Source: Polaromonas sp.
Lineage (GTDB): Bacteria > Pseudomonadota > Gammaproteobacteria > Burkholderiales > Burkholderiaceae_C
DNA length: 64,000 bases
Assembly (NCBI RefSeq): GCF_030689685.1
Contig: NZ_JAUYEY010000007.1
Span: 1 to 64,000, forward strand
Direction of reading: 5' to 3'
The position numbers and the translations under genes are program-made. Below, piece by piece: positions 1,003 to 15,894 of this stretch. Position 1 is the stretch's first letter, and each line of letters starts with the position of its first letter. The notes under the pieces are model-generated. The model did not search any database and was not told the DNA's origin. It worked only from the letters and a program-made list of their open reading frames with translations.

Positions 1003-3117
1003 TTAAAACAGGTAGCCGCCCACCCGCTGCAGCAGCGATTCAGCTTCGGCGTAGCGGCCCAGGCCCTGCAGCACACGGGCCAGGGCGAGGTCACTGCGGA
1101 CAATCAGTTCCGTGCTGATGACGGTGTTTTCAGCGGGGCTCAGGCCGGCGGTTGCCTGCGCCATGCGGCGATACTGATCAGCCTTGGCAGGCAAGCCACC
1201 GTTGGCATAAAGCAACGCCAGTTGCGTCAGGGCTTGCGCTTTTTCCAGGCCCGATTTTGTCTCCAACTGCGCTTGCAGGCTGCTGGTCATGGCGTCCATC
1301 TGTTCTTGCGCGGCAGCATCGGCGAGTTGGGCCACGCTGCGCAGCCATGACGCGCGTTCTGATAAGTTAGGATTTTTGCCGGCCTGTGCCAGGGCCGCAT
1401 CGAGGCTTTGTTTGGCCTTGTCGCTTTGCCCCAGTTGCTGCTTGATTTGATGGTCAATCGCGTACAGGCGCAGTTGCGACCACGCATCGGGCGCCTGTTT
1501 GATCAGCTCGTCGATTTGCCCCGCGCTGGCCTGGGCTTTTGACCACATACCGGCCTTGATTTTTGCGCTCGCTTCGTTGGCCAACACCTCCGCCATGGAA
1601 ACCGCCAGGTCACCCATGGCCGCGTTGGGTTGGCCAGGGCCGGTCACAGATTTCAGCGCATCGGCTGCCTGCGACAGAAAGTTTCTCGGTATCTCGGGCG
1701 CTATCTGCCCGCTTTGACTCAGAATGGATGCCACGCTGCCCAGCAGTTGCACACGCTCGGCCGCATTGTCCAGCGCCAGAATTTTGGCTTTCAGCACGTC
1801 GCTGACCACGCGTGCTGGGCCGATTTCGCGCCTTTGTATCGCCCATGCACGGGCTTTCAGGTCTGCGTTCCTGAGGGCAGCGGCGCCTTCGGGCTCCGCT
1901 GCCGCATTGCTAGCGGCCAGCGCCGCCTTCAAAACCTCTTGGGCGCGCGCCGACTGGCCGATTTCGGCCAGCACCCTGGCGAACTCGGCAGTCAAGACCT
2001 GCTTGGTTTGTTTGGGTACAGCAGTGGCGGTCGCGCCAGCGGCAGTTGGAGCGTCAGAAATTAGTTTATCCGCAAAAGTTGAGCCAGTGGCACCGTCAAC
2101 GGCTTTGTCAATACCGCTGTTCGGTGACTGGCCGCCAGCACTGCCGGCACCTGCGGATTTGCCACCCGCACCGGCGCCGGCCAGCGCCCGCTCGGCCGAG
2201 GTGTTGCCAACGGATTTGGCGAGCGTCTGGGAGGCCGCAACGGCTTGTTCAATGGTCAGTCCCTTGGCTCCGATTTTTTTGCCGCCAGCGGCTTGGATCA
2301 ATGGATCGTCAATGTCCGGATCGCCCGTGCCGACGCCAGCGCCGCCTCCGGCGCTATCTGCATCGGCGCCAGCGGCCTGGGCTGTTTTTTCCAGGCTGTC
2401 GGCACTCATGACTTTGGGCTGGCCGTCCTTGCTGCTGGCCGATTTGCCCCAGGGAAGGCCATCGGGTGACAAACCTTTGCCGCCGACGAAGGCCACCACC
2501 AGCAAAGCAAATACACCGACCACCTTCACCAGGCCCGAGACACCGCCTTTTTTCCGTTTGATTCCGTATTCCGCCTCTATTTCCTCGCGAACTTTGGCGC
2601 GCATGGCTGCTTCCATCATCTCGCGAGAGCGCTTGTCGCTGTCTTTGGCCGACTTGGCCTGCTGGTATTCGATCTTTCCGCGCTCTTGCTCCATCATCTT
2701 GCGCCGCAGGAGAAACTCGTCGGTGACTTTGTCCACGAAAATGCCGCAAGCCGGGCACTGGCGATTTTCTGGAAGGATCACCCGTTTTTGGCAAGCCGGG
2801 CAAGAGTAGGTGCCGTCGTAGCTGCCCGCCATTGCGGTCTGGATCGTCAGCAGCGGCGTGATGGTCACCAGCAGCCCGGCTTTGCTGAATTGCTCGTGCG
2901 CCACATCCGCTCTTTCGCGAGTCACACCCGCGCCTATTTTGGCCTGCGGGGAGCTGCGCAAAACCTGGATGAGGCGATCAACCTTGTCTGCAGCAATACC
3001 CGCTACATCACGCGCCAGGCGTTCAATCTCTTCAAGTTGTGCACCTGGAGGCACATTGATGACCACATCAAAAAGTGGTGTGTCCGATTCGATGGCGCCA
3101 GCTACGGGTTCAGACAT
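1003..3117 (-). CDS. Zinc-ribbon, single-pass membrane protein of unknown function
   Basis: A 704-residue protein I do not recognise as a named family. Residues 1-95 form a small alpha/beta-looking domain. Cys106, Cys109, Cys121 and Cys124 (two CPAC motifs) form a probable zinc ribbon. A charged, coiled-coil-like helix spans about 130-190, a hydrophobic segment at about 195-213 is a probable transmembrane helix, and a Gly/Ala-rich linker leads to an alanine-rich helical C-terminus (about 390-704) resembling degenerate TPRs. The start is supported by GGGAG about seven bases upstream. Orientation would put the zinc ribbon in the cytoplasm and the helical repeats in the periplasm; this is inference. 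Confidence 0.75.
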   Translation of the reverse strand: MSEPVAGAIESDTPLFDVVINVPPGAQLEEIERLARDVAGIAADKVDRLIQVLRSSPQAKIGAGVTRERADVAHEQFSKAGLLVTITPLLTIQTAMAGSYDGTYSCPACQKRVILPENRQCPACGIFVDKVTDEFLLRRKMMEQERGKIEYQQAKSAKDSDKRSREMMEAAMRAKVREEIEAEYGIKRKKGGVSGLVKVVGVFALLVVAFVGGKGLSPDGLPWGKSASSKDGQPKVMSADSLEKTAQAAGADADSAGGGAGVGTGDPDIDDPLIQAAGGKKIGAKGLTIEQAVAASQTLAKSVGNTSAERALAGAGAGGKSAGAGSAGGQSPNSGIDKAVDGATGSTFADKLISDAPTAAGATATAVPKQTKQVLTAEFARVLAEIGQSARAQEVLKAALAASNAAAEPEGAAALRNADLKARAWAIQRREIGPARVVSDVLKAKILALDNAAERVQLLGSVASILSQSGQIAPEIPRNFLSQAADALKSVTGPGQPNAAMGDLAVSMAEVLANEASAKIKAGMWSKAQASAGQIDELIKQAPDAWSQLRLYAIDHQIKQQLGQSDKAKQSLDAALAQAGKNPNLSERASWLRSVAQLADAAAQEQMDAMTSSLQAQLETKSGLEKAQALTQLALLYANGGLPAKADQYRRMAQATAGLSPAENTVISTELIVRSDLALARVLQGLGRYAEAESLLQRVGGYLF

Positions 3118-3267: not shown

Positions 3268-3840
3268 TCAAACCCAACCGAACCAGCCCAGCAAGGCGCC
3301 CGAACCGAGCAGCCACAACATATGCAGTCGGGTGCGCCACACCACGACTGCTGCTAAACCAGCGAGCAGGCCCACCGGCCAGTCTTTCAGGCCGGTGACG
3401 TTGGCACTGGCCAGGACCCAGCCGGTGGCGATCAGCAATGCAATCACGACCGGGGCCATGCCCTGCTTGAAGGCGCGCACCCAGCGCAAGTTGCGGTTGC
3501 GGTGGCCCCAACTGGCGGCCAGGTAAGTCAGGGTGGTGCTCGGCAGCAGGATGCCCAGCATGGTGACCAACACGCCGAACAGCCCCATCAGTGGTCCGCC
3601 AGCGTTCAGGCCCACATGCCAGCCTATCAGCGCGACAAACAGCACGTTGGGGCCGGGGGCGGCCTGCGCAATCGCCACCGAAGCGTTGAACTGTGGATCG
3701 CTCAGCCAATGCTGGCGGTCCACCAGGTAGCGGTGCATGTCGGGCGCGGTGGTGATGGCGCCGCCCACCGACAGCAGCGACAGGAGCATGAAATGCCCGA
3801 ACAGCGCCAGCCAGTCGCTCCATTGCAGGCTCAAGCTCAT
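3268..3840 (-). CDS. chrA: Chromate transporter, second half-subunit (CHR family)
   Basis: A 190-residue hydrophobic protein of the short-chain CHR family. It shows the N-terminal SVGGA segment, the QAAPGPNVLF motif typical of ChrA halves and about five or six membrane segments. Short-chain CHR proteins work as pairs to export chromate. Its ATG overlaps the stop of the preceding gene (ATGA at 3837-3840), so the two are translationally coupled. This is the normal two-gene arrangement, not a frameshift of a full-length ChrA. Substrate specificity for chromate is assigned by family only. The 150 bases between its stop and the previous gene hold no clear terminator. Confidence 0.88.
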   Translation of the reverse strand: MSLSLQWSDWLALFGHFMLLSLLSVGGAITTAPDMHRYLVDRQHWLSDPQFNASVAIAQAAPGPNVLFVALIGWHVGLNAGGPLMGLFGVLVTMLGILLPSTTLTYLAASWGHRNRNLRWVRAFKQGMAPVVIALLIATGWVLASANVTGLKDWPVGLLAGLAAVVVWRTRLHMLWLLGSGALLGWFGWV

Positions 3841-4421
3841 TGGTCCAGCTTCCTGTAGGTCAGGGTGCAGGCGGTCACGCCCAGCCCGAGCAGCACGTAG
3901 ACCAGCGGAAGCCGCAGCAGCGCGATGCCGCTGAAACACAGCACGGCCAGCGCGATGCACATCGGCAGGCCCAGAGGGTGTTTTTTCAGAGCGCCCATCA
4001 ACTTGAGCCCGGTGGCGGCGATCAAACCCGCAGCGACCGCGCCCATGCCGCGCAGCGCGCCGGCCACGCCGGGATGGCCGGCGAACTGCGCATAGACCAG
4101 GGCCAGCATCAGCACCACCAGCAAGGGCACGGTCAGCATGCCGGCCAGCGCCGCCATGGCACCACGCAGGCCAAAGTAGCGGTGGCCAATCATCAGCGAC
4201 AGGTTGACCACGTTGGGGCCGGGCATGATCTGCGCCACCGCCCATTCCTCGACAAATTCCTCCCGCGTCAGCCAGCGTTTTTTCTCGACCAACTCGCGCT
4301 GCACCACGGCCAGCACACCGCCGAACCCCTGTAGGGCCAGCAGCGTGAACGAGACAAACAGGTCGGTGAGTGACTTCGGTTGCGGATGTGTGTCTTCGTC
4401 GTCGGCAGGCTGGGCGGTCAT
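3837..4421 (-). CDS. chrA: Chromate transporter, first half-subunit (CHR family)
   Basis: A 194-residue membrane protein forming the first partner of the short-chain chromate transporter pair. After a polar N-terminus come the QGFGG motif (about residue 32), the RWLTREEF segment and the QIMPGPNVVNLS motif, all hallmarks of the CHR N-terminal domain, then hydrophobic helices. It overlaps the second half-gene by four bases. Both genes lie on the minus strand downstream of a repeat element at 4437-4494. Function in chromate efflux is family knowledge; no regulator of the chrB type is next to it. Confidence 0.88.
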   Translation of the reverse strand: MTAQPADDEDTHPQPKSLTDLFVSFTLLALQGFGGVLAVVQRELVEKKRWLTREEFVEEWAVAQIMPGPNVVNLSLMIGHRYFGLRGAMAALAGMLTVPLLVVLMLALVYAQFAGHPGVAGALRGMGAVAAGLIAATGLKLMGALKKHPLGLPMCIALAVLCFSGIALLRLPLVYVLLGLGVTACTLTYRKLDQ

Positions 4422-4584: not shown

Positions 4585-5541
4585 TCACAGCCTGAGCGCC
4601 CAGGTTTCGCCGATGAGTTCCTTGCCGAAGCCAGTGTAGGGTTCGCTCCTGATGAGCTGGAAGCCGCGTCTGGCATAGATGTCTCGCGCGCTGCCCAGAC
4701 AGCTGTTGGTCCATAGCACCATTTTTTTGTAGCCCTTGCTGCGCGCAAAGGCGATACATTCATCGGTCAGCAGGGCACCCAGGCCCCGGCCGCGCGCCTG
4801 CGGCGTCAGGATCAGCATGCGCAACTGGGCTACGGTGGGGGATTTGCGCACCACGAACACCGACCCCACGCGCTGCCCCTCCAGTTCGGCGATCCAGCAG
4901 CGTTCCCAGTCCGGCTGGTGCTTGCGCAGGTAGCCGGCAACGATGTCCGCCACCAACGCTTCGAAGGCGCTGTTCCAGCCGTACTCGCGCGCATAAACTT
5001 CACCATGTTGTTGCACCACCCAGCCCATGTCACCGGGCTGAGGGTCACGCAGCAGCACGCCGGGTGAGGCTGCGCTGGCAGCCGCCGGTTCAAGCAGGCG
5101 CTGCACCGTGGCCAGCGCATCCGTCAAGGTCTGTTGCGCCGGTGCGGCCAGCGGTGTCAGCAGGGCAGCAGCCTCATCGCGCGAGCGTTGTTGCAGCGGC
5201 GCAAATACCTGGTAACCGGCGTCGGTCAGGCGCAACAGGCTTTGCCGCGCGTCGGCTGGTGAGGCCGTGCGCTCCATCCAGCCCTTTACCTCGAAGCGGC
5301 GCAGGATGCGGCTCAGGTAACCCGCGTCCAGTGCCAGGTCGCGTCCCAGCTCGGTCGCCGTCGGCTGGTCGCGATGCGCCAGTTCATAAAGCACCCGCAC
5401 CTCGGTCAGCGAAAACTCGCTGCCCAGGTAGGGGGCCAGCACACCGATGCGCTGGGTGTAAAAGCGGTTGAAGCCGCGCACGGCCTTGACGTGGGCGGTG
5501 GACACCGGGGGAGATGGAGCAGCCTTCATGGCAGCAATCAT
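4585..5541 (-). CDS. MarR-type regulator fused to a GNAT N-acetyltransferase
   Basis: A 318-residue two-domain protein. Residues about 15-150 are a winged-helix MarR domain (ELGRDLALDAGYLSRILRRFE recognition-helix region, then the DARQSLLRLT wing). Residues about 165-318 are a GNAT acetyltransferase with the acetyl-CoA loop LTPQARGRGLGALL and the terminal YARRGFQ segment. This fusion is known in proteobacteria, but its substrates are mostly undefined. ATG at 5541 is preferred; a TTG two codons upstream and an ATG at 5529 are alternatives. A palindrome directly upstream (5553-5565) suggests autoregulation. Confidence 0.88.
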   Translation of the reverse strand: MIAAMKAAPSPPVSTAHVKAVRGFNRFYTQRIGVLAPYLGSEFSLTEVRVLYELAHRDQPTATELGRDLALDAGYLSRILRRFEVKGWMERTASPADARQSLLRLTDAGYQVFAPLQQRSRDEAAALLTPLAAPAQQTLTDALATVQRLLEPAAASAASPGVLLRDPQPGDMGWVVQQHGEVYAREYGWNSAFEALVADIVAGYLRKHQPDWERCWIAELEGQRVGSVFVVRKSPTVAQLRMLILTPQARGRGLGALLTDECIAFARSKGYKKMVLWTNSCLGSARDIYARRGFQLIRSEPYTGFGKELIGETWALRL

Positions 5542-5552
5542 TCCCAAGTTAA

Positions 5553-5565
5553 TTGACTAAGTCAA
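5553..5565. promoter_or_regulatory. Palindromic operator upstream of the MarR-GNAT gene
   Basis: TTGACTAAGTCAA is a perfect odd-centred dyad 12 bases upstream of the chosen ATG, the classical position and size of an autoregulatory MarR site. Binding by the adjacent MarR-GNAT protein is inference. Confidence 0.5.
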
Positions 5566-5577
5566 GTAAATTGATTC

Positions 5578-6111
5578 TCAAGCGGCGTCTGCATCGCCGC
5601 GGCTAATCAGGGTGCGCAGGATTTTTTTCAATGCCGTGACATCGCGCTCGCTGAAGCCTTCAAGCAGCGCGTCTTCATGCAGCTTGGCCTGCGCCAGCAG
5701 TGCGGCGACCGTCGCGCGCCCCTGCCTGGTTTCGAACACCAGCGTGCGCCGTGCATCGGCCGGGTCGACGCCGCGTTGCACCCAGCCGGCTTTTTCCATG
5801 CGCTGCACCAGTTTGGTCAGGGTCGGTTGCTGCGCCAGGATCTCGCGTGCCAGCTCGCCGATGGTCAGGCCGTCGCCGTCCGACAGCGTGGCCAGCAAGC
5901 GCCATTCGAGTGAACCCAGGCCGGCGGCCTGCACCTGGGCGTGAAACTCGCGATAAACGGTGTGGCTGGCGCGCGCCAGCAGGTAAGACAGGTAGCCGTC
6001 AATGAACCTGTCAGGTGGGGCGGGGCAGTCCGGTGCGGGGTTGCGGCTCACGGTATGTCTTTCTGCGCCCACGATGGAGTTGGTGTGCTTGCGGATTACA
6101 TGAATATTCAT
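5578..6111 (-). CDS. MarR-family transcriptional regulator of the adjacent catabolic operon
   Basis: A MarR-family winged-helix repressor of up to 177 residues. The HTH is visible at TIGELAREILAQQPTLTKLVQRMEKAGWVQR (cited from about residue 81) followed by the wing DPADARRTLVFET. It is divergent from the flavin reductase/NicX-like operon, the same position as NicR and PicR in known pyridine-carboxylate clusters. The ATG at 6111 lies inside a palindrome (6100-6111) and only 13 bases from the divergent ATG, so translation may really begin at the GTG at 6051 (VSRNPAPD). It probably represses the divergent operon until a pathway intermediate binds. Confidence 0.85.
   Translation of the reverse strand: MNIHVIRKHTNSIVGAERHTVSRNPAPDCPAPPDRFIDGYLSYLLARASHTVYREFHAQVQAAGLGSLEWRLLATLSDGDGLTIGELAREILAQQPTLTKLVQRMEKAGWVQRGVDPADARRTLVFETRQGRATVAALLAQAKLHEDALLEGFSERDVTALKKILRTLISRGDADAA
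6100..6111. promoter_or_regulatory. Palindrome in the divergent MarR/flavin reductase promoter region
   Basis: ATGAATATTCAT is a perfect 12-base palindrome next to AT-rich sequence (TATATTAT) that could hold a -10 box for either direction. It sits between the divergent genes and is the obvious candidate operator for the MarR protein. If so, the regulator's start codon is more likely the GTG at 6051 than the ATG within the palindrome. Confidence 0.45.
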
Positions 6112-6124
6112 ATATTATGGACAG

Positions 6125-6643
6125 ATGAATGCCGCCTTGCAAGCCATCCCGCAGATCGCCTCACCCCCGGACAGCCGGGCGCTGCGCACGGCGCTGGGCC
6201 AGTTCGCCACCGGCATCACGGTGGTCACCACGCGAGCGGCGGACTGCGCCTTTGTGGGTCTCACGGTCAACTCGTTTTCGGCGCTGTCGCTGGAGCCGGC
6301 GTTGATCCTGTGGTCGCTGCGTGGCAGCTCGCCCAGCCTGCCGGTGTTTGAAAACGCAGAGCGGTTTGTCGTCAATGTGCTCGCTGAAGCCCAGGTCGAG
6401 ACATCGCGCAGGTTTGCCTTGCCGCTGGCCGACAAGTTCGACGGTGTGGCGCATGCTGAAAACGCCTGGGGCCAGCCGCTGATTCACGGCGCCGCTGCGT
6501 GGTTCGAATGCCGCACCGTGTCGCGGCAGATCGCCGGCGACCATTGCCTGTTCATTGCCGCGGTCGAGCGGTTTACGCTCTCCGATGCGGCTCCCTTGCT
6601 GTTTCATGCGGGCGGCTACTTCGCTCTCGGTTCACGTCTTTAA
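6125..6643 (+). CDS. Flavin reductase, partner of a two-component flavoenzyme
   Basis: A 172-residue member of the FMN-binding flavin reductase family (HpaC/NtaB-like). It shows the typical ALGQFATGITVVTT start, the VNSFSALSLEPALILWSL flavin-binding stretch, FVVNVL, and the terminal FHAGGYFAL motif with its conserved His-Gly-Gly-Tyr pattern altered to HAGGYF. Such enzymes reduce FMN or FAD with NAD(P)H and pass the free reduced flavin to a separate oxygenase. It opens a five-gene operon. The likely partner is the dehydrogenase-fold protein at 8497-9783. Confidence 0.88.
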   Translation: MNAALQAIPQIASPPDSRALRTALGQFATGITVVTTRAADCAFVGLTVNSFSALSLEPALILWSLRGSSPSLPVFENAERFVVNVLAEAQVETSRRFALPLADKFDGVAHAENAWGQPLIHGAAAWFECRTVSRQIAGDHCLFIAAVERFTLSDAAPLLFHAGGYFALGSRL

Positions 6644-6654
6644 GGAAGTTTTTC

Positions 6655-7701
6655 ATGCTGCAGGAACGAATTGAAGCCCGCTGGATTGACTGTTTTGTAG
6701 AGACCTTCGCGCTGTGCGGCGTGCAGGCCGGCGACACGGCGGCTATCCTGTCCGAGACGCAGTCGCGGCCGGTCAATGTGCAACTGGCCGAACTCGCGCT
6801 GGCGCGTCTGGGTGCGCGGGCTTTTCAGCTGGTGCTGGCCACGCCGCGGCTGGCTGCGCCTGTGCCCGTGCGCTCCACCGGTGCATCGGATGCCATCGGC
6901 CAGCTTGCTCCCGTGGTGCAGGCGCTGGCAGCCTGCACCTTTGTGGCCGATCTGACGGTGGAGGGCCTGCTGCACGCCGCCGAACTTCCCGCCATCCTGA
7001 AAGGCGGCACCCGTGTTTTGATGGTGTCCAACGAACATCCGGAAATCCTCGAGCGCTGCGTGCCCGATGCGGCGCTGGAGCCAAAGGTCAAGGCCGGCAT
7101 CAAGCTGCTGCGCCATGCCAAAGCCATGCATGTCACCTCGTCCGCAGGCACCGATCTGCGCATTTCACTGGAGGGCGCACGAGCCGGTGGCGGCTGGGGC
7201 TACACGGCAAAGCCGGGCACCATTTCCCATTGGCCCGGCGGCCTGTGTCTGGCGTTTCCGGCCAAAGGCAGCGTCAACGGCAAACTTGTGCTGGACCAGG
7301 GCGATGTCAACCTGACTTTCAAGCGCTACCTTGAAAACCCGGTGGTACTGACGATCAAGGACGACTTTGTGACCGACATCGCCGGACAACATGCCGATGC
7401 AGACCTGATGCGCAGCTACTGGGCCGCCTGGGGCGACCGCGAGGCCTATGCGGTGTCGCATGTGGGCTGGGGCATGAACCCGAAAGCGCGCTGGGACGCC
7501 ATGGCCTTTTATGACAAGAAAGACTTTAACGGCACCGAGTTGCGCGCCTTTGCCGGCAATTTTCTGTATTCGACCGGTGCCAACGAAGTCGCCGGGCGCC
7601 ATACGCTGGGGCATTTTGACCTGCCACTTCGAGCCTGCACCCTGAGCCTGGACGGTCAGGTCATCGTGGACGCTGGCCGCCTCACGGGCGAGTTGGCCTG
7701 A
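6655..7701 (+). CDS. NicX-like 2,5-dihydroxypyridine 5,6-dioxygenase (Fe-dependent, M29-like fold)
   Basis: A 348-residue protein of the NicX/aminopeptidase T-like family, near the 350 residues of NicX. NicX binds Fe(II) with His265, His318 and Asp320. Here His269 (AVSHVGWG) and the HFD triplet His320/Asp322 (TLGHFDLPL) occupy equivalent places, and His107 and His192 match two further active-site histidines of NicX. It should therefore open a hydroxylated ring, with 2,5-dihydroxypyridine to N-formylmaleamate as the model reaction; the true substrate may differ. ATG 6655 follows AAGGAAG. It lies 11 bases after the flavin reductase and 3 before the hydrolase. Confidence 0.8.
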   Translation: MLQERIEARWIDCFVETFALCGVQAGDTAAILSETQSRPVNVQLAELALARLGARAFQLVLATPRLAAPVPVRSTGASDAIGQLAPVVQALAACTFVADLTVEGLLHAAELPAILKGGTRVLMVSNEHPEILERCVPDAALEPKVKAGIKLLRHAKAMHVTSSAGTDLRISLEGARAGGGWGYTAKPGTISHWPGGLCLAFPAKGSVNGKLVLDQGDVNLTFKRYLENPVVLTIKDDFVTDIAGQHADADLMRSYWAAWGDREAYAVSHVGWGMNPKARWDAMAFYDKKDFNGTELRAFAGNFLYSTGANEVAGRHTLGHFDLPLRACTLSLDGQVIVDAGRLTGELA

Positions 7702-7704
7702 GCC

Positions 7705-8487
7705 ATGTGGCTGCCAGCCTATCTGGAGCAAGGGCAGGGCGATACCGCCGTTTTCCTGCTGCACGGTGTGGGGGGCGGCAAAGAGGCCTGGGCGCACAAC
7801 CAGCCGGTTCTGGCCGCGCAGGGGTTCAGAACCATTGCCTGGGACATGCCCGGCTACGGCGCATCACTGCCGCTGGCGACGTGTAGCAACGCCGCACTGG
7901 CAGGCGCTCTCAAAGCCCTGATCGACCACATTGACGCAAAACGCAACGTCCTACTGGGCCACAGCATGGGCGGCATGATTGCACAGGAACTGGCGGCCTT
8001 GCACCCGTCGCTGGTGCATGGCCTGATTCTTCACAGCACCTCGCCAGCCTTCGGCAAAGGCGATGGGGTCTGGCAGCAGCAGTTCTTGCAGAGCCGTTTT
8101 GAGCCGCTGGACCGGGGCTTGAATATGGCCGGCCTCGCCGCACAGCTAGTGCCTGGCATGTTTGCACCTGATGCCGCCCCGGCGCGCATCGCCGGGGCGG
8201 CTGCACTGATGGGCAAGGTGCCGGTGGCCAGCTACCGCGCCGCGCTGTCCGCCATCGTGTCCTTCAACCGGCTCGCTGATCTGGGGCGGATTGAGGTGCC
8301 AACCCTGTGCCTGGCTGGCGAGCTGGACAAAAACGCGCCGCCTGCCGTGGTGGAAAAGATGGCAAGCCGGATAAGCGACGCTGAATATGTCTGCCTCGCC
8401 GCTACCGGCCATATCGCCAATATCGAAGCGCCTGATCTTTTCAATCACGCCGTAGTGTCCTTTCTGAAAAAACATTTTTTGTCCTGA
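7705..8487 (+). CDS. Alpha/beta hydrolase, possible N-formylmaleamate deformylase analogue
   Basis: A 260-residue alpha/beta hydrolase. The oxyanion HGVGG segment is at residues 20-24, the nucleophile Ser87 lies in GHSMGG, Asp208 in AGELDKNAP and His236 in ATGHIANIE, giving a complete catalytic triad. In the nicotinate and picolinate pathways an enzyme of this fold (NicD/PicE) follows NicX and removes formate from N-formylmaleamate. Position directly after a NicX-like gene makes a ring-cleavage-product hydrolase likely, but no maleamate amidase or maleate isomerase is nearby, so the exact substrate is open. Confidence 0.82.
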   Translation: MWLPAYLEQGQGDTAVFLLHGVGGGKEAWAHNQPVLAAQGFRTIAWDMPGYGASLPLATCSNAALAGALKALIDHIDAKRNVLLGHSMGGMIAQELAALHPSLVHGLILHSTSPAFGKGDGVWQQQFLQSRFEPLDRGLNMAGLAAQLVPGMFAPDAAPARIAGAAALMGKVPVASYRAALSAIVSFNRLADLGRIEVPTLCLAGELDKNAPPAVVEKMASRISDAEYVCLAATGHIANIEAPDLFNHAVVSFLKKHFLS

Positions 8488-8496
8488 GGTACTGCC

Positions 8497-9783
8497 ATGT
8501 CCGCACTTCCCGTTTCCTCTTTGCCCAGCGCGCGTTACCTGCCGCCGTCGATCGCCGGCGACTACACCGAGCTCACGCCCAAACAGACGCAGCTGCTGGC
8601 CATCGCCGCCCGGCTGGGGCGCGAAAAATTTGCGCCACGTGCGCAGCAGATCGACCGCGACGCTGTGTTTCCGTTTGAGAACTATGCCGACCTGCGTGAG
8701 GCCGGTCTGCTGGGCATCTGCGTGCCCGAAGAACACGACGGCTGGGGCGCCGACTTTGCCACCTACGTCATGACTGCCGCCGAGATCGGCCGCCATTGCG
8801 GCGCCACGGCCTTGACCCTGAACATGCATGTGAGCTCGACCATGTGGACCGGCTTCATTGCCGATGACCTTGACATGACCGCCGAGCAACGCACCAACCA
8901 TGAAGCCCACAGAAAAGTGCATTACCAGCGAGTGGTGAAAGACGGCAAGGTGTATTCGCAGCCTTTTTCCGAGGGCGGGGCGGCTGCCGCAGGCAAGGCG
9001 CCGTTTGGCACCCTGGCCCGCAAGGTGGACGGTGGTTATATCGTCAACGGCAAGAAGATTTTTGCCTCACTGGCCGGTGCCGCCGACTACTACGGCATTT
9101 TGTGCACCCTGGACAAACCTGGCGCCACGCAGCGCGACTCGCTGTACCTGGCGGTCGATAAAAACCTGGAGGGCGTGAGTGTCACCGGCGACTGGGACCC
9201 GCTGGGCATGCGTGGCACGGTTTCGCGCACGCTGATTTTCAAAGATGTGTTTGTGCCCGAGATCGAACGCCTGATTCCGGAAGGGATCTACGCTCAGGCT
9301 GCGCTGCGCTGGCCACACATGTTTGCCACGCTGTCGCCAACCTACATGGGCATCGCCCAGGCGGCTTACGATTTCACCGTGCAGTACCTGCGCGGCGAAG
9401 TACCCGGCACGCCGCCGGTGAAACGCCGCATGTACCCGACCAAGCAGATTGCGGTGGCTGAAATGAAAGTGCGGCTGGAGCAAACCCGCGCGATTTTTCT
9501 GCAAAACGCCCGCGCCGCACGGGTTGATCCCTCCAAGGAAATTCGCCTTGGGCTTTACGCGGCGCACTACACCATCATGGAAAACGCCAACGAGATCTGC
9601 CGCCTGGCCGTGCGCACCTGCGGCGGCCAGTCCATGCTCAAGAGTCTGCCGCTGGAGCGTATGTACCGCGATTCGCGCTGCGGCTCGTTGATGCTGCCGT
9701 GGACCGCCGAGCTCTGCATCGACCGGCTGGGTCGCGAATGCCTGTACGAGGCCGGTGAACAGGACGAGCAGGCGGTGCTTTAA
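8497..9783 (+). CDS. Acyl-CoA dehydrogenase-fold flavoprotein lacking the catalytic Glu; candidate flavin monooxygenase
   Basis: A 428-residue acyl-CoA dehydrogenase-like protein: N-terminal helical domain, beta-domain near FSEGGAAAAGKAPFG and YIVNGKKIFASLA, then the helical C-terminal domain. Where medium- and short-chain dehydrogenases have Y-E-G-T with the catalytic Glu, this protein has LPWTAE (400-405). The alternative LCAD/IVD-type Glu before the Arg-Leu pair is also absent (LSPTYMG region). Loss of both bases argues against alpha,beta-dehydrogenation. The fold is shared with two-component flavin monooxygenases, and a flavin reductase is in the same operon, so an oxygenase role is plausible. 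This is inference from residues and context. Confidence 0.75.
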   Translation: MSALPVSSLPSARYLPPSIAGDYTELTPKQTQLLAIAARLGREKFAPRAQQIDRDAVFPFENYADLREAGLLGICVPEEHDGWGADFATYVMTAAEIGRHCGATALTLNMHVSSTMWTGFIADDLDMTAEQRTNHEAHRKVHYQRVVKDGKVYSQPFSEGGAAAAGKAPFGTLARKVDGGYIVNGKKIFASLAGAADYYGILCTLDKPGATQRDSLYLAVDKNLEGVSVTGDWDPLGMRGTVSRTLIFKDVFVPEIERLIPEGIYAQAALRWPHMFATLSPTYMGIAQAAYDFTVQYLRGEVPGTPPVKRRMYPTKQIAVAEMKVRLEQTRAIFLQNARAARVDPSKEIRLGLYAAHYTIMENANEICRLAVRTCGGQSMLKSLPLERMYRDSRCGSLMLPWTAELCIDRLGRECLYEAGEQDEQAVL

Positions 9784-9792
9784 TTTTCTGAC

Positions 9793-11268
9793 ATGACCCT
9801 CGCGCAGATCATTGATCGGCACGCGCAGGTCTCTCCGCAGCGGGTGGCCCTGCATGCAGCCGGGCAAGACATCAGCTACGCCGACCTGTGGCAGCGCATC
9901 CAGCGCGCGACCAGCGTTCTGCTGAAAGCCGGGGTACAACCGGGCGACCGGATGGCCTGGCTGGGCTTCAACGATCCGGCGATGTTGGTGCTTCTGTTTG
10001 CGTTGGCGCGAGTGGGCGGCATCTTGCTGCCACTGAATTACCGGCTCTCGGGCACCGAACACGCGGCCATTCTTGGCCATGCGGGTGTGCGCCTGCTGGT
10101 CACCGATGTATCCCATGCCGCTGCGGCCAGCGCGTTGTCCGCGCAGACGGGTTGCGCACTGCTGCATGTCGACGCGCTGTCTGTAGCCAGCGTCGGCATC
10201 GAGCTGACCGCCCTCAGCTCAGACCCCGCCGCATCTGCGCTGCTCGTCTATACCTCCGGCACCGGCGGACAACCCAAAGGCGTACTACATTCTCAAGCCG
10301 GTCTGGTCTGGAACTGCGTGATTGCCACCCACGCCCAGGAACTGACGCCTGACGACCATGTGCTCAGCACGCTGCCGATGTTTCATGTGGGTGGGTTGTG
10401 CATCCAGACCCTGCCTGCCTTGCACGCTGGTGCAACGGTCACGCTGCATGCGCGTTTTGAGGCGGGTGCCTGGCTGGCCGACGTGGCAAAGCGGCAACCC
10501 ACGTTGTCTTTGATGGTGCCCGCGACCTTGCGTGCGGTGCTGCACCACCCTGATTTTGCAAACACGGATATTTCATCCCTGAAGCTGCTGGTCGCAGGTT
10601 CATCGACCATTCCGGCGTCAATGATCAGCGCCATCCATGCCCGCGGCATCCCGGTCGGCCAGGTTTATGGCGCCACCGAAACCGGACCTGTATCCATCTA
10701 CCTGCGCCGTGAAGAAGCCATGCGGCATGCCGGATCGGTCGGCAAGGCAGGCATTCATGTTGAAGTGCAACTGGTCAAGGAAACCGGCGCGTCAGCAGCG
10801 ATTGGCGAGGTCGGTGAGATCTGGGTACGCGGCCCGAATTTATTGCAGGGCTATTGGGCAGACCCGGACAACCCGGCTTTTGCAGAGGGCTGGTTTCACA
10901 CCGGTGATCTTGCACGCCGGGACGAAGCCGGGTTTTACGAGATTGTGGGCCGCTCCAAAGACATGATCATCTCGGGGGGAGAAAACATCTACCCGGCGGA
11001 GATCGAAAACCTGCTGGCCGACTGCCCGAAGATTCGCGAGGCAGCCGTGGTCGGCCAGCCAGATGCCCGCTGGGGCGAGATCGTGGTGGCCGTGGTGGTT
11101 CGGGCGCCCGGCGCCGAGCTTGATGCGGCGCAAGTGATGCAGCTGTTCGACCAGCGGCTTGCGCGCTTCAAACACCCCAAGCGGGTCGTGTTTTGCGATG
11201 CCTTGCCCAAAACGGCCCTGGGCAAGGTGCAAAAGGCCGGCCTGCTGGCGGCCATCGCCGGTCAATAA
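9793..11268 (+). CDS. AMP-forming acyl/aryl-CoA ligase
   Basis: A 491-residue ANL-superfamily enzyme that should activate a carboxylic acid to its CoA thioester through an acyl-adenylate. Motifs in order: the P-loop YTSGTGGQPKG (about 153-163), YGATETG (about 293), WFHTGDLA (about 366), GRSKDMIISGGENIYPAEIE, and the terminal catalytic Lys in PKTALGKVQK. It ends the five-gene operon, nine bases after the previous gene, and its stop overlaps the convergent fadB-like gene by seven bases. The acid could be the operon's growth substrate or a ring-cleavage product; the sequence does not tell. Confidence 0.88.
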   Translation: MTLAQIIDRHAQVSPQRVALHAAGQDISYADLWQRIQRATSVLLKAGVQPGDRMAWLGFNDPAMLVLLFALARVGGILLPLNYRLSGTEHAAILGHAGVRLLVTDVSHAAAASALSAQTGCALLHVDALSVASVGIELTALSSDPAASALLVYTSGTGGQPKGVLHSQAGLVWNCVIATHAQELTPDDHVLSTLPMFHVGGLCIQTLPALHAGATVTLHARFEAGAWLADVAKRQPTLSLMVPATLRAVLHHPDFANTDISSLKLLVAGSSTIPASMISAIHARGIPVGQVYGATETGPVSIYLRREEAMRHAGSVGKAGIHVEVQLVKETGASAAIGEVGEIWVRGPNLLQGYWADPDNPAFAEGWFHTGDLARRDEAGFYEIVGRSKDMIISGGENIYPAEIENLLADCPKIREAAVVGQPDARWGEIVVAVVVRAPGAELDAAQVMQLFDQRLARFKHPKRVVFCDALPKTALGKVQKAGLLAAIAGQ

Positions 11269-13421
11269 ACCGGCTGGTGTTTTTTGATGCTGACCTTGAC
11301 CTGATCGCTGAGTAAGAACCCCGGGCCAAACTTGCTTGCAAGCTGGTCGGCCCGTTTGGCAAATGCGTCCAACCCCATGCCGTAGATAAACTGCATCGCA
11401 CCCCCGGTCCAGGCCGGAAAACCAATGCCAAAGATGGAGCCGATGTTGGCGTCGTGCACCGTCGTCAGAACGTTTTCACTCAGGCAGCGTGCGGTCTCCA
11501 CAGCCTGTCGGTACAGCAACCGGTCTTTGATGTCGGTGATGTCCCAGGACACGGCCGGTTTTTCGAACAGGGTTTTGAGCTCGGGCCAGAGGCTTTTCTT
11601 TGCGCCTTTTTCAGCCGGGTAGTCGTAAAAACCGGCACCGGCCGCCCGGCCATTGCGGTCAAACTCCTTGACCATGCGCTCCACAATCAGCTCGCCTGGC
11701 GTCGCGATATAGGTTTTTTCTTCAGCCGCGAAGTCGGCACGGGTCTGGTCCAGCACATGCACGCTCAGCGACAGCGCGGTTTCATCAAGTACCGCAAGCG
11801 GGCCGACCGGCATGCCGCATTGCATGCCGGCATTTTCTATCGCGGCTGCCGGAATACCTTCGCCCAGCATGGCCGCACCCTCCATCACAAAAGTGCCAAA
11901 GGTGCGGCTGGTGTAAAACCCGCGCGAGTCGTTGACCACGATGGGAATTTTGCCGAGTGCCTGCACATAGTCAAAGGCGCGCGCCACGGTTTCATCGTCG
12001 GTCTGCTTGCCGCGAATGATCTCAACCAGCTTCATCTTGTCCACCGGGCTGAAGAAGTGGATACCTATGAATTTTTCGGGCCTTGCGCTGGCCGTGGCCA
12101 GCCCGCTGATGGGAAGGGTAGAGGTGTTGGAGGCAAAAAATCCGCCAGGGGCCAGCAGCGGCTCGGCTTCTTGTGTGACTTTGGCTTTCAGGTCGCGGCG
12201 TTCAAACACTGCTTCAATGATCAGGTCGCAGCCCGCCAGCTCAGCGACCTGGTCGGTGGCGGTGATGCGCGAGAGCAGGGCGCTTTGATCGGGCGCGCTC
12301 ATGCGACCCTTGTCCACACGCTGCTGCGTGAGTTTGGCACTGTAAGCCTTGCCGACATCGGCCTTGTCCTGGCTGACATCCCTGAGAACGGTGCTGATGC
12401 CCCGGCTGGCCTGCACATACGCAATGCCTGCACCCATCATGCCCGCGCCCAGCAAGCCGACCTTTTGTGGCTTGTAGCGCGGAATGTCTTTGGGTCGCGA
12501 CTGGCCGGACTTGATCGCGTTCATGTTGAAGAAGAAGGTGTTGATCATCGCCTTGGCCACCGGCGTCACCGCCAGCCGGGCCAGATAGCGGCTTTCGATG
12601 CGCAGCGCGGTGTCGTAATCCACCTGCGCGCCTTCAACCATCGCCGCCAATGCCGCTTCAGGAGCGGGGTAAAGTCCGCGCGTCTTCTGCTTGAGCACGG
12701 CAGGCGCCACGCTGAGCATGCCCGCCAGCTTGGGACTGGAAGGCAAGCCGCCTGGCATCCTGTAGTTTTTGTCGTCCCACGGGTGATGGGCCGGCGCGGC
12801 GGCGCCATCGTGGGTGGCAATCCACGCCAGCGCCGCCGGACGGAGTGCGGCGGCATCGGGCACCAATTCGTGCACCAGACCCAGCTCCAGCGCCTCACGC
12901 GGGTTGAACAATTTGCTTTCCAGGATGTAGGGCTGCGCACCCATCAGGCCCAACAGACGTGTCATTTTGGTGATGCCGCTGGCGCCCGGAATCAGTCCGA
13001 GGGTGATCTCGGGCAGGCCGAACTGGATCTTTTTGTCATCGACCGCAATGCGGTAATGGCCGATCAGCGCCACCTCCCAGCCGCCGCCCAGCGCAGCGCC
13101 ATTGAGGCAGCTGACCACCGGCTTGCCCAGGGTTTCGAGCGTGCGAAAGTTTTTCTTCATGCGCTCGATTTCGGCAAACACCGCGCCCGCGTCGGACGCC
13201 TGGTTGCGCATCAGGCCCTTGAGGTCGGCACCGGCAAAAAAGGTGCTCTTGTTGGAGGCCAGCACGATGCCACGTATGGCTTCACGGTCTTTGAGCACCT
13301 GCGCGGTGACCTCGTTCAGGTCCTGCTGCCACTGCGCGCACATGGTGTTGACCGGCGAGCCTGGCTCGTCGAAGGTCAGGGTGGCAATGCCGTTGGCCAG
13401 TTCGTATTGAATGGTTTTCAT
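11262..13421 (-). CDS. FadB/FadJ-type bifunctional enoyl-CoA hydratase/3-hydroxyacyl-CoA dehydrogenase
   Basis: A 719-residue multifunctional beta-oxidation alpha-subunit. The N-terminal crotonase domain (1-190) has the oxyanion segments STFFAGADLKG and LNGAALGGGWE. The NAD-binding domain begins near 315 with GAGMMGAGIAYV and continues through NTSTLPI and GIHFFSPVDKMKLVEI. The C-terminal dehydrogenase domain includes VNDSRGFYTSRTF. It hydrates enoyl-CoA and oxidises the 3-hydroxyacyl-CoA. ATG 13421 shares its A with the thiolase stop (TGATG), so the pair is translationally coupled. ATG is chosen because the upstream open frame overlaps the thiolase. Confidence 0.92.
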   Translation of the reverse strand: MKTIQYELANGIATLTFDEPGSPVNTMCAQWQQDLNEVTAQVLKDREAIRGIVLASNKSTFFAGADLKGLMRNQASDAGAVFAEIERMKKNFRTLETLGKPVVSCLNGAALGGGWEVALIGHYRIAVDDKKIQFGLPEITLGLIPGASGITKMTRLLGLMGAQPYILESKLFNPREALELGLVHELVPDAAALRPAALAWIATHDGAAAPAHHPWDDKNYRMPGGLPSSPKLAGMLSVAPAVLKQKTRGLYPAPEAALAAMVEGAQVDYDTALRIESRYLARLAVTPVAKAMINTFFFNMNAIKSGQSRPKDIPRYKPQKVGLLGAGMMGAGIAYVQASRGISTVLRDVSQDKADVGKAYSAKLTQQRVDKGRMSAPDQSALLSRITATDQVAELAGCDLIIEAVFERRDLKAKVTQEAEPLLAPGGFFASNTSTLPISGLATASARPEKFIGIHFFSPVDKMKLVEIIRGKQTDDETVARAFDYVQALGKIPIVVNDSRGFYTSRTFGTFVMEGAAMLGEGIPAAAIENAGMQCGMPVGPLAVLDETALSLSVHVLDQTRADFAAEEKTYIATPGELIVERMVKEFDRNGRAAGAGFYDYPAEKGAKKSLWPELKTLFEKPAVSWDITDIKDRLLYRQAVETARCLSENVLTTVHDANIGSIFGIGFPAWTGGAMQFIYGMGLDAFAKRADQLASKFGPGFLLSDQVKVSIKKHQPVY

Positions 13422-14626
13422 CAGACTCTTTCGACAATCGTCGCGATACCCATGCCCCCACCGACACACAGCGTGGCCAGCCCGTACCGCAGCTTGCGCC
13501 TGTGCAACTCGTCAATCAGGGTGCTGAGGATCATGGCGCCGGTTGCGCCCAGCGGGTGGCCCATGGCAATCGCGCCGCCATTGACGTTGACCTTGTCGTG
13601 CGGCACCTTCATCTCCTTCATGAAACGCATCACCACGGCGGCAAAGGCTTCGTTCACTTCAAACAGGTCGATCTGGTCAATGCTCAAGCCAGCCTTGGCC
13701 AGCGCCTTGCGGGCGGCGGGCATGGGGCCGGTCAGCATGATGGTCGGGTCTGCGCCGCTCAACGCCGCCGCCACAATGCGGGCGCGCGGCGTGAAGCCAT
13801 GGACTTTCCCCGCCGCTTCCGAGCCGACCAGCACCGCAGCCGCGCCGTCTACGATGCCCGACGAGTTGCCGGCATGGTGCACATGGTGGATGCGTTCGAC
13901 CTGCGGGTACCGCGTCAGCGCCACCTGATCGAAACCCATGGCACCCAGCTGTTCAAAAGCCGGTTTGAGCGCGGCCAGGCCTTCCAGCGTGGTGTGCGGC
14001 TTGATGAATTCGTCCTGGGCCAGAATGGTTTGATCCAGAAAATCCTTGACGGGAACGACGGATCGGTCGAAGTAGCCCGCATCACGGGCTGTGGCGGCGC
14101 GCTTCTGGCTCTCCAGTGCAAAAGCGTCTACGTCGGCGCGGCTGAAACCTTCCAGAGTGGCAATCAAATCGGCGCCTATGCCTTGTGGCACAAACGCCGT
14201 GGCGCTGTTGGTCTCTGGGTCCTGCGCCCAGGCGCCGCCGTCTGAGCCAATCGGCACGCGGCTCATGCTTTCGACGCCGCCCGCAACCACCAGGTCTTCC
14301 CAACCGGAGCGCACCTTTTGTGCGGCCATGTTGACGGCCTCCAGGCCCGACGCGCAAAAGCGGTTGATCTGTACGCCAGAGGCGCGAAAGTCCCAGCCGG
14401 CTTTCAACGCAGCGACCTTGGCAATGACCGAGCCCTGCTCGCCGATAGGTGAGACCACACCCATCACCACGTCGTCGACCTGCGCCGTGTCAAAGCCATT
14501 GCGGTGCTGCAGCTCCGTTAACACGCCAGCCAGCAGATTGACGGGTTTGACCTCGTGCAGGCTGCCGTCTTTTTTGCCCTTGCCGCGTGGCGTGCGGATG
14601 GCGTCGTAGATGAATGCTTCGGTCAT
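13421..14626 (-). CDS. Acetyl-CoA C-acyltransferase (thiolase)
   Basis: A 401-residue thiolase, the FadA-like partner of the downstream FadB-like protein. The nucleophilic Cys lies in [12 protein letters not shown], with the ESMSRVPIG segment, the [15 protein letters not shown] His motif and the terminal CVGGGMGIA Cys motif all present. It cleaves 3-ketoacyl-CoA with CoA. ATG 14626 gives the usual [16 protein letters not shown] start and has AGGAG upstream; a longer frame to 14683 lacks homologous sequence. The 104-base gap to the divergent acyl-CoA dehydrogenase probably carries a shared control region, including a short AAGC-N4-GCTT dyad at 14678-14689. Confidence 0.93.
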
Positions 14627-14730
14627 GGGAGGCTCCTGCGGAAAAGAGGGTGCAGGAACGAGTATATTCATTTCACCAAGCAAACGCTTTCCATAAATAT
14701 GGCCCAGGCCTTCAACCCGACAGGTGACCC

Positions 14731-15894
14731 ATGATCGACCGTACCCTTTTCAACAGCGACCACGAGGCCTTCCGCGACGCCTTTCGCAAGTTTTGCGACA
14801 AGGAGATTGCGCCTTTCCACGAGGCATGGGAAGAACAGGGGTATGTGGACCGCGCGGTCTGGAACAAGGCTGGCGCGAACGGCTTTTTGTGCATGACCAT
14901 GCCGGAAGCCTATGGCGGATCGGGCGCCGACAAGCTGTACTCGGTGGTCCAGATGGAAGAGCTGGCACGCGGCGGTTTCAGTGGCATCGGCTACGGCCTG
15001 CACAGCGAAATTGTTGCGCCTTACATCCTCCACTACGGCACAGAGGCGCAAAAACTCAAGTACCTGCCCAAACTCGCAAGCGGCGAGATGGTAGGTGCGA
15101 TTGCGATGAGTGAACCCGCTGCGGGCTCCGACCTGCAAGGCGTGAAGACCACTGCGATCAAACAGGCCGATGGCAGCTACCTGCTCAATGGCAGCAAGAC
15201 TTTCATCACCAATGGCTGGCACGCTGACCTCGTGGTGGTGGTGGCCAAGACGAATCCGGCAGCGGGTGCCAAGGGCACCAGCTTGCTGCTGGTCGAGCGC
15301 GGCATGCCGGGTTTTTCGGTCGGCAAGCGCCTCAAAAAACTGGGACTCAAGGCGCAAGACACCTCGGAGTTGTTTTTCTCTGATGTGAGCGTTCCAGCGG
15401 CCAATCTGCTGGGCGGCGAAACGCATGAAAACCGTGGCTTCATCTGCCTGATGGAGCAACTACCGTGGGAGCGGCTGCAGATTGCCATCACAGCCGTCGC
15501 CTCGGCGCAGGCGGCCATCGACTGGACGGTGGCCTATGTGAAGGAGCGCAAGGTCTTCGGCCAGCCGGTGGCCAGCTACCAGAACACGCGCTATACCCTG
15601 GCCGAGTTGCAGACACAGGTGCAGGTGGCGCGCGTCTTCATCGACAAATGCACCGAACTTCTGGCCAGCGACAAGCTCGACACCGCGACCGCCAGCATGG
15701 CCAAGTACTGGACCACCGACCTGCAGTGCAAGGTCATGGACGAATGTGTGCAGTTATTCGGTGGTTACGGCTACATGTGGGAGTACCCCATCACCCGAGC
15801 TTACGCCGACGCGCGTGTGCAGCGGATTTACGGCGGCACCAACGAGATCATGAAAGAGGTGGTCTCGCGCGCGATGGGGCTGGGTGCCAAATAA
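14731..15894 (+). CDS. Acyl-CoA dehydrogenase (long-chain/isovaleryl type)
   Basis: A 387-residue FAD-dependent acyl-CoA dehydrogenase introducing the alpha,beta double bond of acyl-CoA. FAD-binding [15 protein letters not shown] (about 128-142) and TNGWHADL are present. The catalytic Glu is in the helix-G position used by long-chain and isovaleryl enzymes (LPWERLQIA), and the C-terminus has [12 protein letters not shown] with Gly where medium-chain enzymes have Glu. With the divergent thiolase and FadB-like genes it forms a complete beta-oxidation set. Acyl chain specificity cannot be read from the sequence. Confidence 0.93.

Follow-up and report, generated by a model that had tools for sequence, protein, structure and literature searches.

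A NicX-like operon of Polaromonas with a possible role in the catabolism of anthranilate or a close aminobenzoate

RESULTS

Gene content of the operon

We examined a stretch of 64,000 nucleotides from Polaromonas sp. (assembly GCF_030689685.1, contig NZ_JAUYEY010000007.1, positions 1 to 64,000), hereafter the window, which comes from a genome of 4.1 Mb. The subject of this study is a five-gene operon at 6125-11268 on the plus strand, encoding a flavin reductase, a NicX-family protein, an alpha/beta hydrolase, a protein of acyl-CoA dehydrogenase (ACAD) fold that we label ACADox, and an AMP ligase, adjoined by a divergent MarR gene (Table 1). A reading of the sequence alone had already called these six genes, their families, and their tight packing. 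All six were confirmed in place, Pfam agreed for MarR, flavin reductase, hydrolase, ACAD fold, and AMP ligase, and the gaps along the operon measured 11, 3, 9, and 9 bases, in that order. The same reading held the combination with a CoA ligase to be new; the combination is conserved, as shown below, and we found no published description of it in the open-licence literature, including the topics of NicX with anthranilate, 5-hydroxyanthranilate, and aminobenzoyl-CoA.

Table 1. Features of the operon and its promoter region in the window.
Feature	Position	Strand	Evidence
MarR-family regulator, probable local repressor	5578..6111	-	PF12802 6.7e-14; also PF01047
Palindrome ATGAATATTCAT, candidate MarR operator	6100..6111		TGAAWWTTCA upstream of MarR-bearing loci
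Flavin reductase, HpaC/HsaB/FerA-like, likely ACADox partner	6125..6643	+	PF01613 4.4e-37
NicX-family predicted Fe(II) ring-cleavage dioxygenase, separate clade	6655..7701	+	7cn3 1.3e-58; TM 0.90; tree
Alpha/beta hydrolase, Ser-Asp-His triad, PcaD/MhpC/BphD-like range	7705..8487	+	PF00561 2.4e-30
ACADox, ACAD-fold flavoenzyme, probable oxygenase	8497..9783	+	PF02771/PF02770/PF00441; AlphaFold2; Foldseek
AMP-forming acyl-CoA ligase	9793..11268	+	PF00501 1e-78

The NicX-like protein forms a separate clade

The NicX-like protein matched no model of Pfam or NCBIfam at E 0.001. With phmmer, residues 13-343 matched the solved structure of NicX (PDB 7cn3; E 1.3e-58), and the closest relatives among the matches listed were Polaromonas proteins at 91% identity. 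An AlphaFold2 model built from 37 sequences reached a predicted local distance difference test (pLDDT) score of 91.0, though residues 67-75, R73 among them, were modelled at under 50. Foldseek aligned this model to NicX at a template modelling (TM) score of 0.90-0.91 and 35-36% identity, against TM 0.49-0.60 for the M29 peptidases AmpT, PepS, and aminopeptidase S. The sequence-only reading had assigned the protein to NicX and had named grouping with M29 aminopeptidases as the finding that would speak against this; sequence and fold together rule out the M29 identity, under which plasmid records of the relatives are annotated.

Residues were compared in an alignment of 107 sequences, made up of 99 clade members (many near-identical, the Polaromonas and Pandoraea rows included) and eight outgroup sequences, including part of 7cn3. 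The NicX iron ligands His265, Ser302, His318, and Asp320, which are H269, Ser306, H320, and D322 in the window protein, are kept in 99, 99, 98, and 97 of the 99 clade sequences, respectively. H107, equivalent to NicX His105, is present in all 99 (three of the eight outgroup sequences have His here and the other five Phe), and H192, equivalent to NicX His189, in 98. Every residue singled out from the sequence alone (His269, His320, Asp322, His107, and His192) is thus present and conserved.

The clade departs from NicX at the position of Glu177, a residue reported to contact N1 and O1 of the dihydroxypyridine (PMC7910607). No clade sequence has Glu there (V 43, G 38, T 8, S 7, N 3), whereas the outgroup has Glu in 6/8 and Gln in 2/8. 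The position of NicX Asp188 is mostly A, S, or T in the clade. Further marks of the clade are Arg38 (99/99; outgroup 1/8), R/K73 (99/99; outgroup 0/8), and a two-residue gap at NicX Tyr75-Cys76 (99/99; outgroup 2/8). In a quick tree of 89 rows, which carries a long-branch warning and has an uncertain root, the clade sits on a branch of length 2.16 (SH-like approximate likelihood ratio test support 98), apart from NicX and its relatives. Since the Glu177 carboxylate is lost, we infer that there may be room for a substrate carboxylate, or a thioester, in the place where the pyridine nitrogen would sit.

The flavoenzyme, hydrolase, and ligase

The AlphaFold2 model of ACADox (35 sequences, pLDDT 88.6) has an ACAD fold. 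Its top two Foldseek matches were 5gj7, a putative acyl-CoA dehydrogenase, and 5z8t, titled a flavin-containing monooxygenase, both at 27-28% identity, with true acyl-CoA dehydrogenases ranking close behind. Neither the C-terminal nor the isovaleryl-type position, which we take to be the catalytic Glu sites of acyl-CoA dehydrogenases, holds a Glu in ACADox; the aligned residues read LMLPWT and WPHMF, the C-terminal motif being poorly modelled (residues 397-399, pLDDT under 50). Lacking the catalytic Glu, ACADox is ruled out as a canonical acyl-CoA dehydrogenase. Because this residue is lacking and the operon holds a flavin reductase gene, ACADox fits a two-component oxygenase of group D, whose features of ACAD fold, absent catalytic Glu, and linked reductase gene (6125-6643) it shares; the two-component-type flavoenzyme proposed from sequence alone is thereby supported. 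The NCBIfam matches of the flavin reductase, all below cut-off, were reductase components of two-component monooxygenases. A search of phages for ACADox returned 21 records, all below 60% identity.

The hydrolase triad, also called complete in the sequence-only reading, is conserved (S87 in 76/76, D208 in 75/76, H236 in 75/76). The hydrolase matched TIGR02427 below its cut-off, and its PDB matches were weak and broad. For the AMP ligase, the closest solved structure was feruloyl-CoA synthetase / fatty-acyl-CoA synthase, at 347 bits.

The gene set recurs across lineages

To describe the neighbourhood of the NicX-like gene, we used the best 80 of 519 confirmed relatives as GTDB loci. Near the NicX-like gene, the hydrolase was found in 69 loci, ACADox in 64, and the ligase in 60. 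All three lay within 9 kb of it in 54/80 loci, so that the recurrence of the set is more than chance; some of the 26 loci without the full trio lie on contigs of just 3-5 kb. Among the lineages represented are Burkholderiales, Minwuiaceae, Kordiimonadales, Rhodospirillaceae, Pseudomonadales, and Acidimicrobiia, which extends well beyond the Comamonadaceae, where a conserved-neighbourhood search had originally been proposed.

A sister variant, at 55-58% identity, was found on rhizobial plasmids and in three genera of two families (L082-L084, L125-L129). It comprises the NicX-like gene, ACADox, a longer hydrolase, a TetR gene, and a glutamine-synthetase-like gene, with an APC permease in 6/8 loci. 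The ligase of the operon type is absent and the glutamine-synthetase-like gene stands in its place, while flavin-reductase-like genes were present in the loci inspected. One variant locus (L127) has a class-I amidotransferase-like gene, below cut-off, and 4/8 hold a cupin resembling gentisate or 5-aminosalicylate dioxygenase, below the family cut-offs. In the aniline pathway, a glutamine-synthetase-like and amidotransferase-like pair is reported to act on an aromatic amine (PMC4539516).

Some clade members stand in other company. At three loci (L020:10001-12330, L023, and L074), clade NicX-like genes lie near ABC-transporter-like and acyl-CoA dehydrogenase-like genes, the latter about 50-54% like window 14731-15894, with no ACADox or operon-type ligase in the examined stretch. 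The clusters of four Minwuia/Kordiimonadales loci (L048, L053, L071, and L080) adjoin a LIV-type ABC transporter, an M81/MlrC peptidase-like gene, and an MTTB-family methyltransferase.

Kynurenine genes and ACMR lie beside several clusters

In all 17 Pandoraea loci, kynB, kynU, and kynA lie beyond the flavin reductase and MarR genes, across the promoter region; in one of these clusters (L046) KynA, KynB, and KynU all passed their NCBIfam cut-offs. The same kyn genes lie beside the flavin reductase and MarR genes in a further genome of the same order (L118 in genome G328; KynA 75% identical), which falls with Pandoraea in one supported clade of the quick tree. As an event separate from these, a Shinella plasmid (L141) carries the variant cluster, a benzoate-CoA-ligase-family gene (cut-off passed), kynA, kynU, and ACMR in about 25 kb. 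We use ACMR as the label for the 2-aminobenzoyl-CoA monooxygenase/reductase family, detected with NF006101, the model for bifunctional salicylyl-CoA 5-hydroxylase/oxidoreductase, a family that we presume to include 2-aminobenzoyl-CoA monooxygenase/reductase. A Sinorhizobium variant locus (L142) had only a weak ACMR-family match (30%).

ACMR was found within 12 kb in 6/80 GTDB loci (L013, L015, L018, L025, L043, and L058) and in 4/15 phylum-sample loci (L120, L121, L127, and L128), and these loci sit on separate tree branches. No known pyridine-pathway gene was found among the neighbour genes typed at related clusters, which are a selection; those that bear on the role are kynA, kynB, kynU, and the ACMR family.

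Directly after the operon, window 11262-15894 holds FadJ-like, thiolase, and acyl-CoA dehydrogenase genes. We rejected FadJ and thiolase as parts of the pathway: direct adjacency is seen in L002-L010 only, with a distant FadJ in L017 and a contig-end piece in L012 (all Comamonadaceae).

Other features around the operon and its relatives were as follows. In the window, a MarR domain fused to a GNAT acetyltransferase domain (4585-5547, minus strand) adjoins the operon and is kept beside it in Polaromonas loci; further out lie two adjacent chromate-transporter-domain genes (3268-4421, minus strand) and a 704-aa open reading frame (1003-3117, minus strand) with no Pfam match at 1e-5. One locus with the full cluster encodes a second, divergent NicX-family protein (L043:6433-7509, minus strand; 34% to that of the window), beside which lies a gentisate-dioxygenase-like cupin (L043:5403-6428, minus strand) adjoined by an ACMR-family gene. 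In L120 and L121, the set lies within a larger cluster with ACMR, crotonase, SDR-like, octopine-dehydrogenase-like, 3-hydroxyacyl-CoA-dehydrogenase-like, dihydroxy-acid-dehydratase-like, and 3-hydroxyisobutyrate-dehydrogenase-like genes, an NMT1-type ABC transporter, and a second two-component (HsaA-like) monooxygenase; proteins were typed in L121, and L120 was assigned by likeness.

Co-occurrence with ACMR and kynurenine genes

We then compared gene content in a sample of 398 genomes of the phylum, of which 19, our own genome included, hold a clade member (≥55% identity). With counts uncorrected for kinship, ACMR (E ≤ 1e-150) was present in 19/19 clade-positive genomes (18 over the family cut-off, G042 below it) versus 52/379 others, KynA (E ≤ 1e-50) in 17/19 versus 78/379, and KynU (E ≤ 1e-30) in 17/19 versus 93/379. 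The two clade-positive genomes without KynA and KynU are G042 and G289. In the latter, the NicX-like gene stands apart, and relatives of the hydrolase and ACADox lie about 10 kb from ACMR on a different contig (L139). In 8/19 clade-positive genomes, belonging to three genera (five, two, and one genome), the distance between ACMR and the NicX-like gene is at most about 16 kb. Of the 71 ACMR genomes, at least 14 have the gene no further than about 11 kb from KynA. One genus (g110) has nine genomes with ACMR, of which six also hold a clade member. In the genome of the window, KynA, KynU, and KynB share a contig (L136) and ACMR lies on a different one (L135), with no anthranilate 1,2-dioxygenase large subunit over cut-off.

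A palindrome accompanies the MarR gene

The pattern TGAAWWTTCA, with a variable AT centre, was present upstream in 38/48 loci with a MarR gene and 0/48 without (two further loci, with little upstream sequence, were left out), and in 3/1920 shuffled upstream regions; since the pattern was picked after viewing the same loci, which are related, these figures overstate independence. The 4.1 Mb genome of the window has a single ATGAAWWTTCAT site, at the operon. Across the 11 genomes searched for ATGAAWWTTCAT, there were 1-3 sites each, and a reversed control pattern occurred once in the window's genome and not in the other ten. As the ATG of the longest MarR open reading frame falls inside the palindrome, the true MarR start is probably internal; the called MarR homologues are mostly about 144-177 aa.

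DISCUSSION

A proposed role in anthranilate catabolism

We take the operon to serve the aerobic breakdown of anthranilate, or a close aminobenzoate, in which a para-hydroxylated intermediate would be cleaved by the NicX-like enzyme, and give this reading about even chances. Kynureninase yields anthranilate, and ACMR uses its CoA ester; a para-hydroxylated aminobenzoate could be the common denominator of the kyn, ACMR, glutamine-synthetase-like, and cupin neighbours. The role would lie at the lower end of tryptophan-kynurenine breakdown. In this scheme, the flavin reductase would supply reduced flavin to ACADox, which would introduce a hydroxyl group para to the amino group of the aminobenzoate, in its free or CoA-thioester form, to give 2-amino-5-hydroxybenzoate (5-hydroxyanthranilate) or its CoA ester. 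The NicX-like Fe(II) enzyme would cleave the ring beside the hydroxylated carbon, comparable to NicX acting between C5 and C6 of 2,5-dihydroxypyridine, with the substrate carboxylate filling the space vacated by Glu177. The hydrolase might then release formate or take off the thioester; a CoA thioester would be formed by the AMP ligase, either as the first step or on the open-chain product. By binding the 12-bp palindrome, MarR would keep the operon silent as long as neither the substrate nor its CoA ester is present. ACMR is reported to yield 5-hydroxyanthraniloyl-CoA when NADH is limiting, and anthranilate-grown Arthrobacter cells were reported to contain a CoA ester of matching composition (PMC3534580).

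A broader and more tentative proposal, which we regard as possible but short of even, is that the NicX branch consists of benzenoid aminophenol dioxygenases acting on 5-hydroxyanthranilate or its CoA ester and that, with ACADox as 5-hydroxylase of anthranilate or anthraniloyl-CoA, it would make up a further aerobic anthranilate pathway across Proteobacteria. Such a pathway would stand beside the catechol, gentisate, 3-hydroxyanthranilate, and 2-aminobenzoyl-CoA routes, in CoA-ligase and glutamine-synthetase-like versions, with the NicX branch present in Acidimicrobiia as well.

Several observations weigh against the anthranilate reading, and we hold it no higher because the ligase is feruloyl-like, ACMR would be redundant with it, and some genomes lack ACMR or kynureninase. 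The ligase is far from the solved anthranilate-CoA ligase 4wv3 (138 bits, against the 347 bits to feruloyl-CoA synthetase). With ACMR, most of the cluster genomes already possess an enzyme for anthraniloyl-CoA, which would leave the operon redundant or with a different role. The co-occurrence counts, besides their lack of correction for kinship, must be set beside the window's own family, in which 12/12 sampled genomes have KynA and 11/12 ACMR but only 4 the clade. Among 49 genomes of the 80 GTDB loci that were checked, ACMR was full or nearly full in 33, partial in 3, and absent or represented by single-domain relatives only in 13; the 13 comprise seven Acidimicrobiia, three Pseudomonadales with the whole cluster, and L029, L031, and L072. 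Strict dependence on ACMR, suggested by the 19/19 count, is weakened accordingly. KynU was found in 34/49 of these genomes and in 0/3 of the ACMR-less Pseudomonadales. These three have the whole cluster and neither gene, so that, as far as the assemblies go, the cluster can occur in the absence of both ACMR and kynureninase; the genes neighbouring their clusters (P450, amidase, Rieske oxygenase) are inconsistent. All three partners together were found in 0/8 Acidimicrobiia loci (L027, L034, L039, L049, L054, L055, L065, and L070).

The linkage evidence has similar weak points. As L118 and Pandoraea share one supported clade, their kyn linkage is perhaps one event, and in L118 an Lrp-type gene lies between MarR and kynB. 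Among the four variant plasmid loci, kyn genes were found only in Shinella in the stretches examined. We also rejected the glutamine-synthetase-like gene as a specific aniline-type enzyme, its homology being too general.

Alternative explanations

The same ring-cleavage substrate could have a different source, in that the NicX-like enzyme and hydrolase may consume 5-hydroxyanthraniloyl-CoA leaking from ACMR, with ACADox and the ligase handling the same side product. The presence of ACMR in every clade-positive sample genome, its adjacency in several lineages, and the reports of this ester from ACMR at low NADH and, by its match, in Arthrobacter (PMC3534580) would all suit such salvage. Salvage would have no need for a dedicated oxygenase with its own flavin reductase, however, and in 13/49 locus genomes, including three that carry the full cluster, the NicX clade is present but ACMR is not; we consider it unlikely.

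Nicotinate clusters contain NicD-type alpha/beta hydrolases and MarR regulators, and the NicX-like protein keeps the NicX fold, the iron ligands, and the equivalents of His105 and His189. These features would suit the view of the sequence-only reading, a new N-heteroaromatic pathway in which ACADox would hydroxylate a pyridine and the NicX-like enzyme open its ring. Its account of the gene content, families, and combination stands, and the palindrome, the glutamine-synthetase-like variant, and the spread beyond Comamonadaceae are additions to it, but the pyridine substrate is not supported: Glu177 is replaced in 99/99 sequences of what is a separate clade, and the typed neighbours include no nicotinate or picolinate genes, while the kyn and ACMR neighbours are benzenoid. 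We judge a pyridine pathway unlikely.

Another 2-substituted benzoate (salicylate, converted to gentisate) or a different aromatic acid would leave the anthranilate genes merely co-clustered. That NF006101 is titled for salicylyl-CoA, that gentisate-dioxygenase-like cupins lie near some clusters, and that the ligase is feruloyl-CoA-synthetase-like would agree with this. We find it improbable, given that the kyn genes yield anthranilate and not salicylate, that the glutamine-synthetase-like variant suggests an amine, and that the proximity of ACMR to KynA recurs in at least 14/71 ACMR genomes.

A fatty-acid or lignin-acid operon, with the ligase activating an acyl acid, ACADox as a dehydrogenase, and the NicX-like protein incidental, would account for the FadJ, thiolase, and acyl-CoA dehydrogenase genes at 11262-15894 and for the ferulate- or fatty-acid-using relatives of the ligase, but is very improbable, as ACADox lacks the catalytic Glu and the NicX-hydrolase-ACADox-ligase set recurs without FadJ and thiolase, which adjoin it in L002-L010 only. 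Homarine catabolism was also considered and set aside, with no such operon in the literature found and no pointer at the loci.

If the anthranilate reading is true, it would add an aerobic anthranilate route at the point where tryptophan, indole, and quinaldine breakdown meet. The NicX fold, for whose family the only reported substrate is a dihydroxypyridine, would gain a benzenoid one, and 5-hydroxyanthraniloyl-CoA, a side product of ACMR, a possible fate. A family without a Pfam or NCBIfam model, now mislabelled as peptidase M29 in plasmid records, would get a name. The palindrome that tracks the MarR gene makes the regulation easily testable.

Comparison with known systems

Nicotinate and picolinate clusters have a NicC/PicB-type hydroxylase, with the NicF maleamate amidase and the NicE isomerase nearby. 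None of NicC/PicB, NicF, or NicE was found among the ten genes scanned at 4585-15894, a scan that did not take in the rest of the genome, in line with their absence as noted from the sequence alone. NicX of Pseudomonas putida KT2440 (7cn3/7cup) resembles the window protein in fold, iron ligands, and the His105 and His189 equivalents. The window clade differs in the change of Glu177 to G/V/T/S/N, an altered Asp188, missing residues around Cys76, R/K73, and Arg38, and it is phylogenetically separate, with typed neighbours that are not pyridine genes.

ACADox shares its fold and a linked flavin reductase with the group D flavin monooxygenases HsaA, HPAH C2, DszC, and KijD3, but at about 20-28% identity (21% to the HsaA-like protein of L121), with all NCBIfam models far below cut-off and with conserved motifs of its own (QPFSE, FASL, and YRDSRCGxLMLPW). 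TdaE of tropone biosynthesis is reported as an ACAD-fold flavoprotein dioxygenase with oxygenase activity on a CoA ester (PMC8283759). ACADox has the same fold, but TdaE is an internal oxygenase without an external reductase, whereas the window operon has a flavin reductase gene; at 23% identity (E 0.007, two-sequence comparison), TdaE was rejected as a close relative, a rejection that concerns kinship and does not extend to the oxygenolysis of a CoA ester as chemistry.

The abm pathway of Azoarcus evansii is similar in its aminobenzoate substrate, AMP ligase, and flavin-dependent oxygenase, and ACMR is a frequent genomic companion of the clade. That route is reported to give a non-aromatic 2-amino-5-oxo-cyclohexene product, followed by beta-oxidation (PMC4539516). 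The window operon differs in having a two-component ACAD-fold flavoenzyme and a NicX-type enzyme; ACMR is not in it, but on another contig of the same genome and adjacent in other lineages. Nocardia opaca is reported to convert anthranilate through 5-hydroxyanthranilate to gentisate before cleavage (PMC4539516). The operon described here would share the para-hydroxylated anthranilate intermediate with that route and differ from it in cleaving the intermediate directly.

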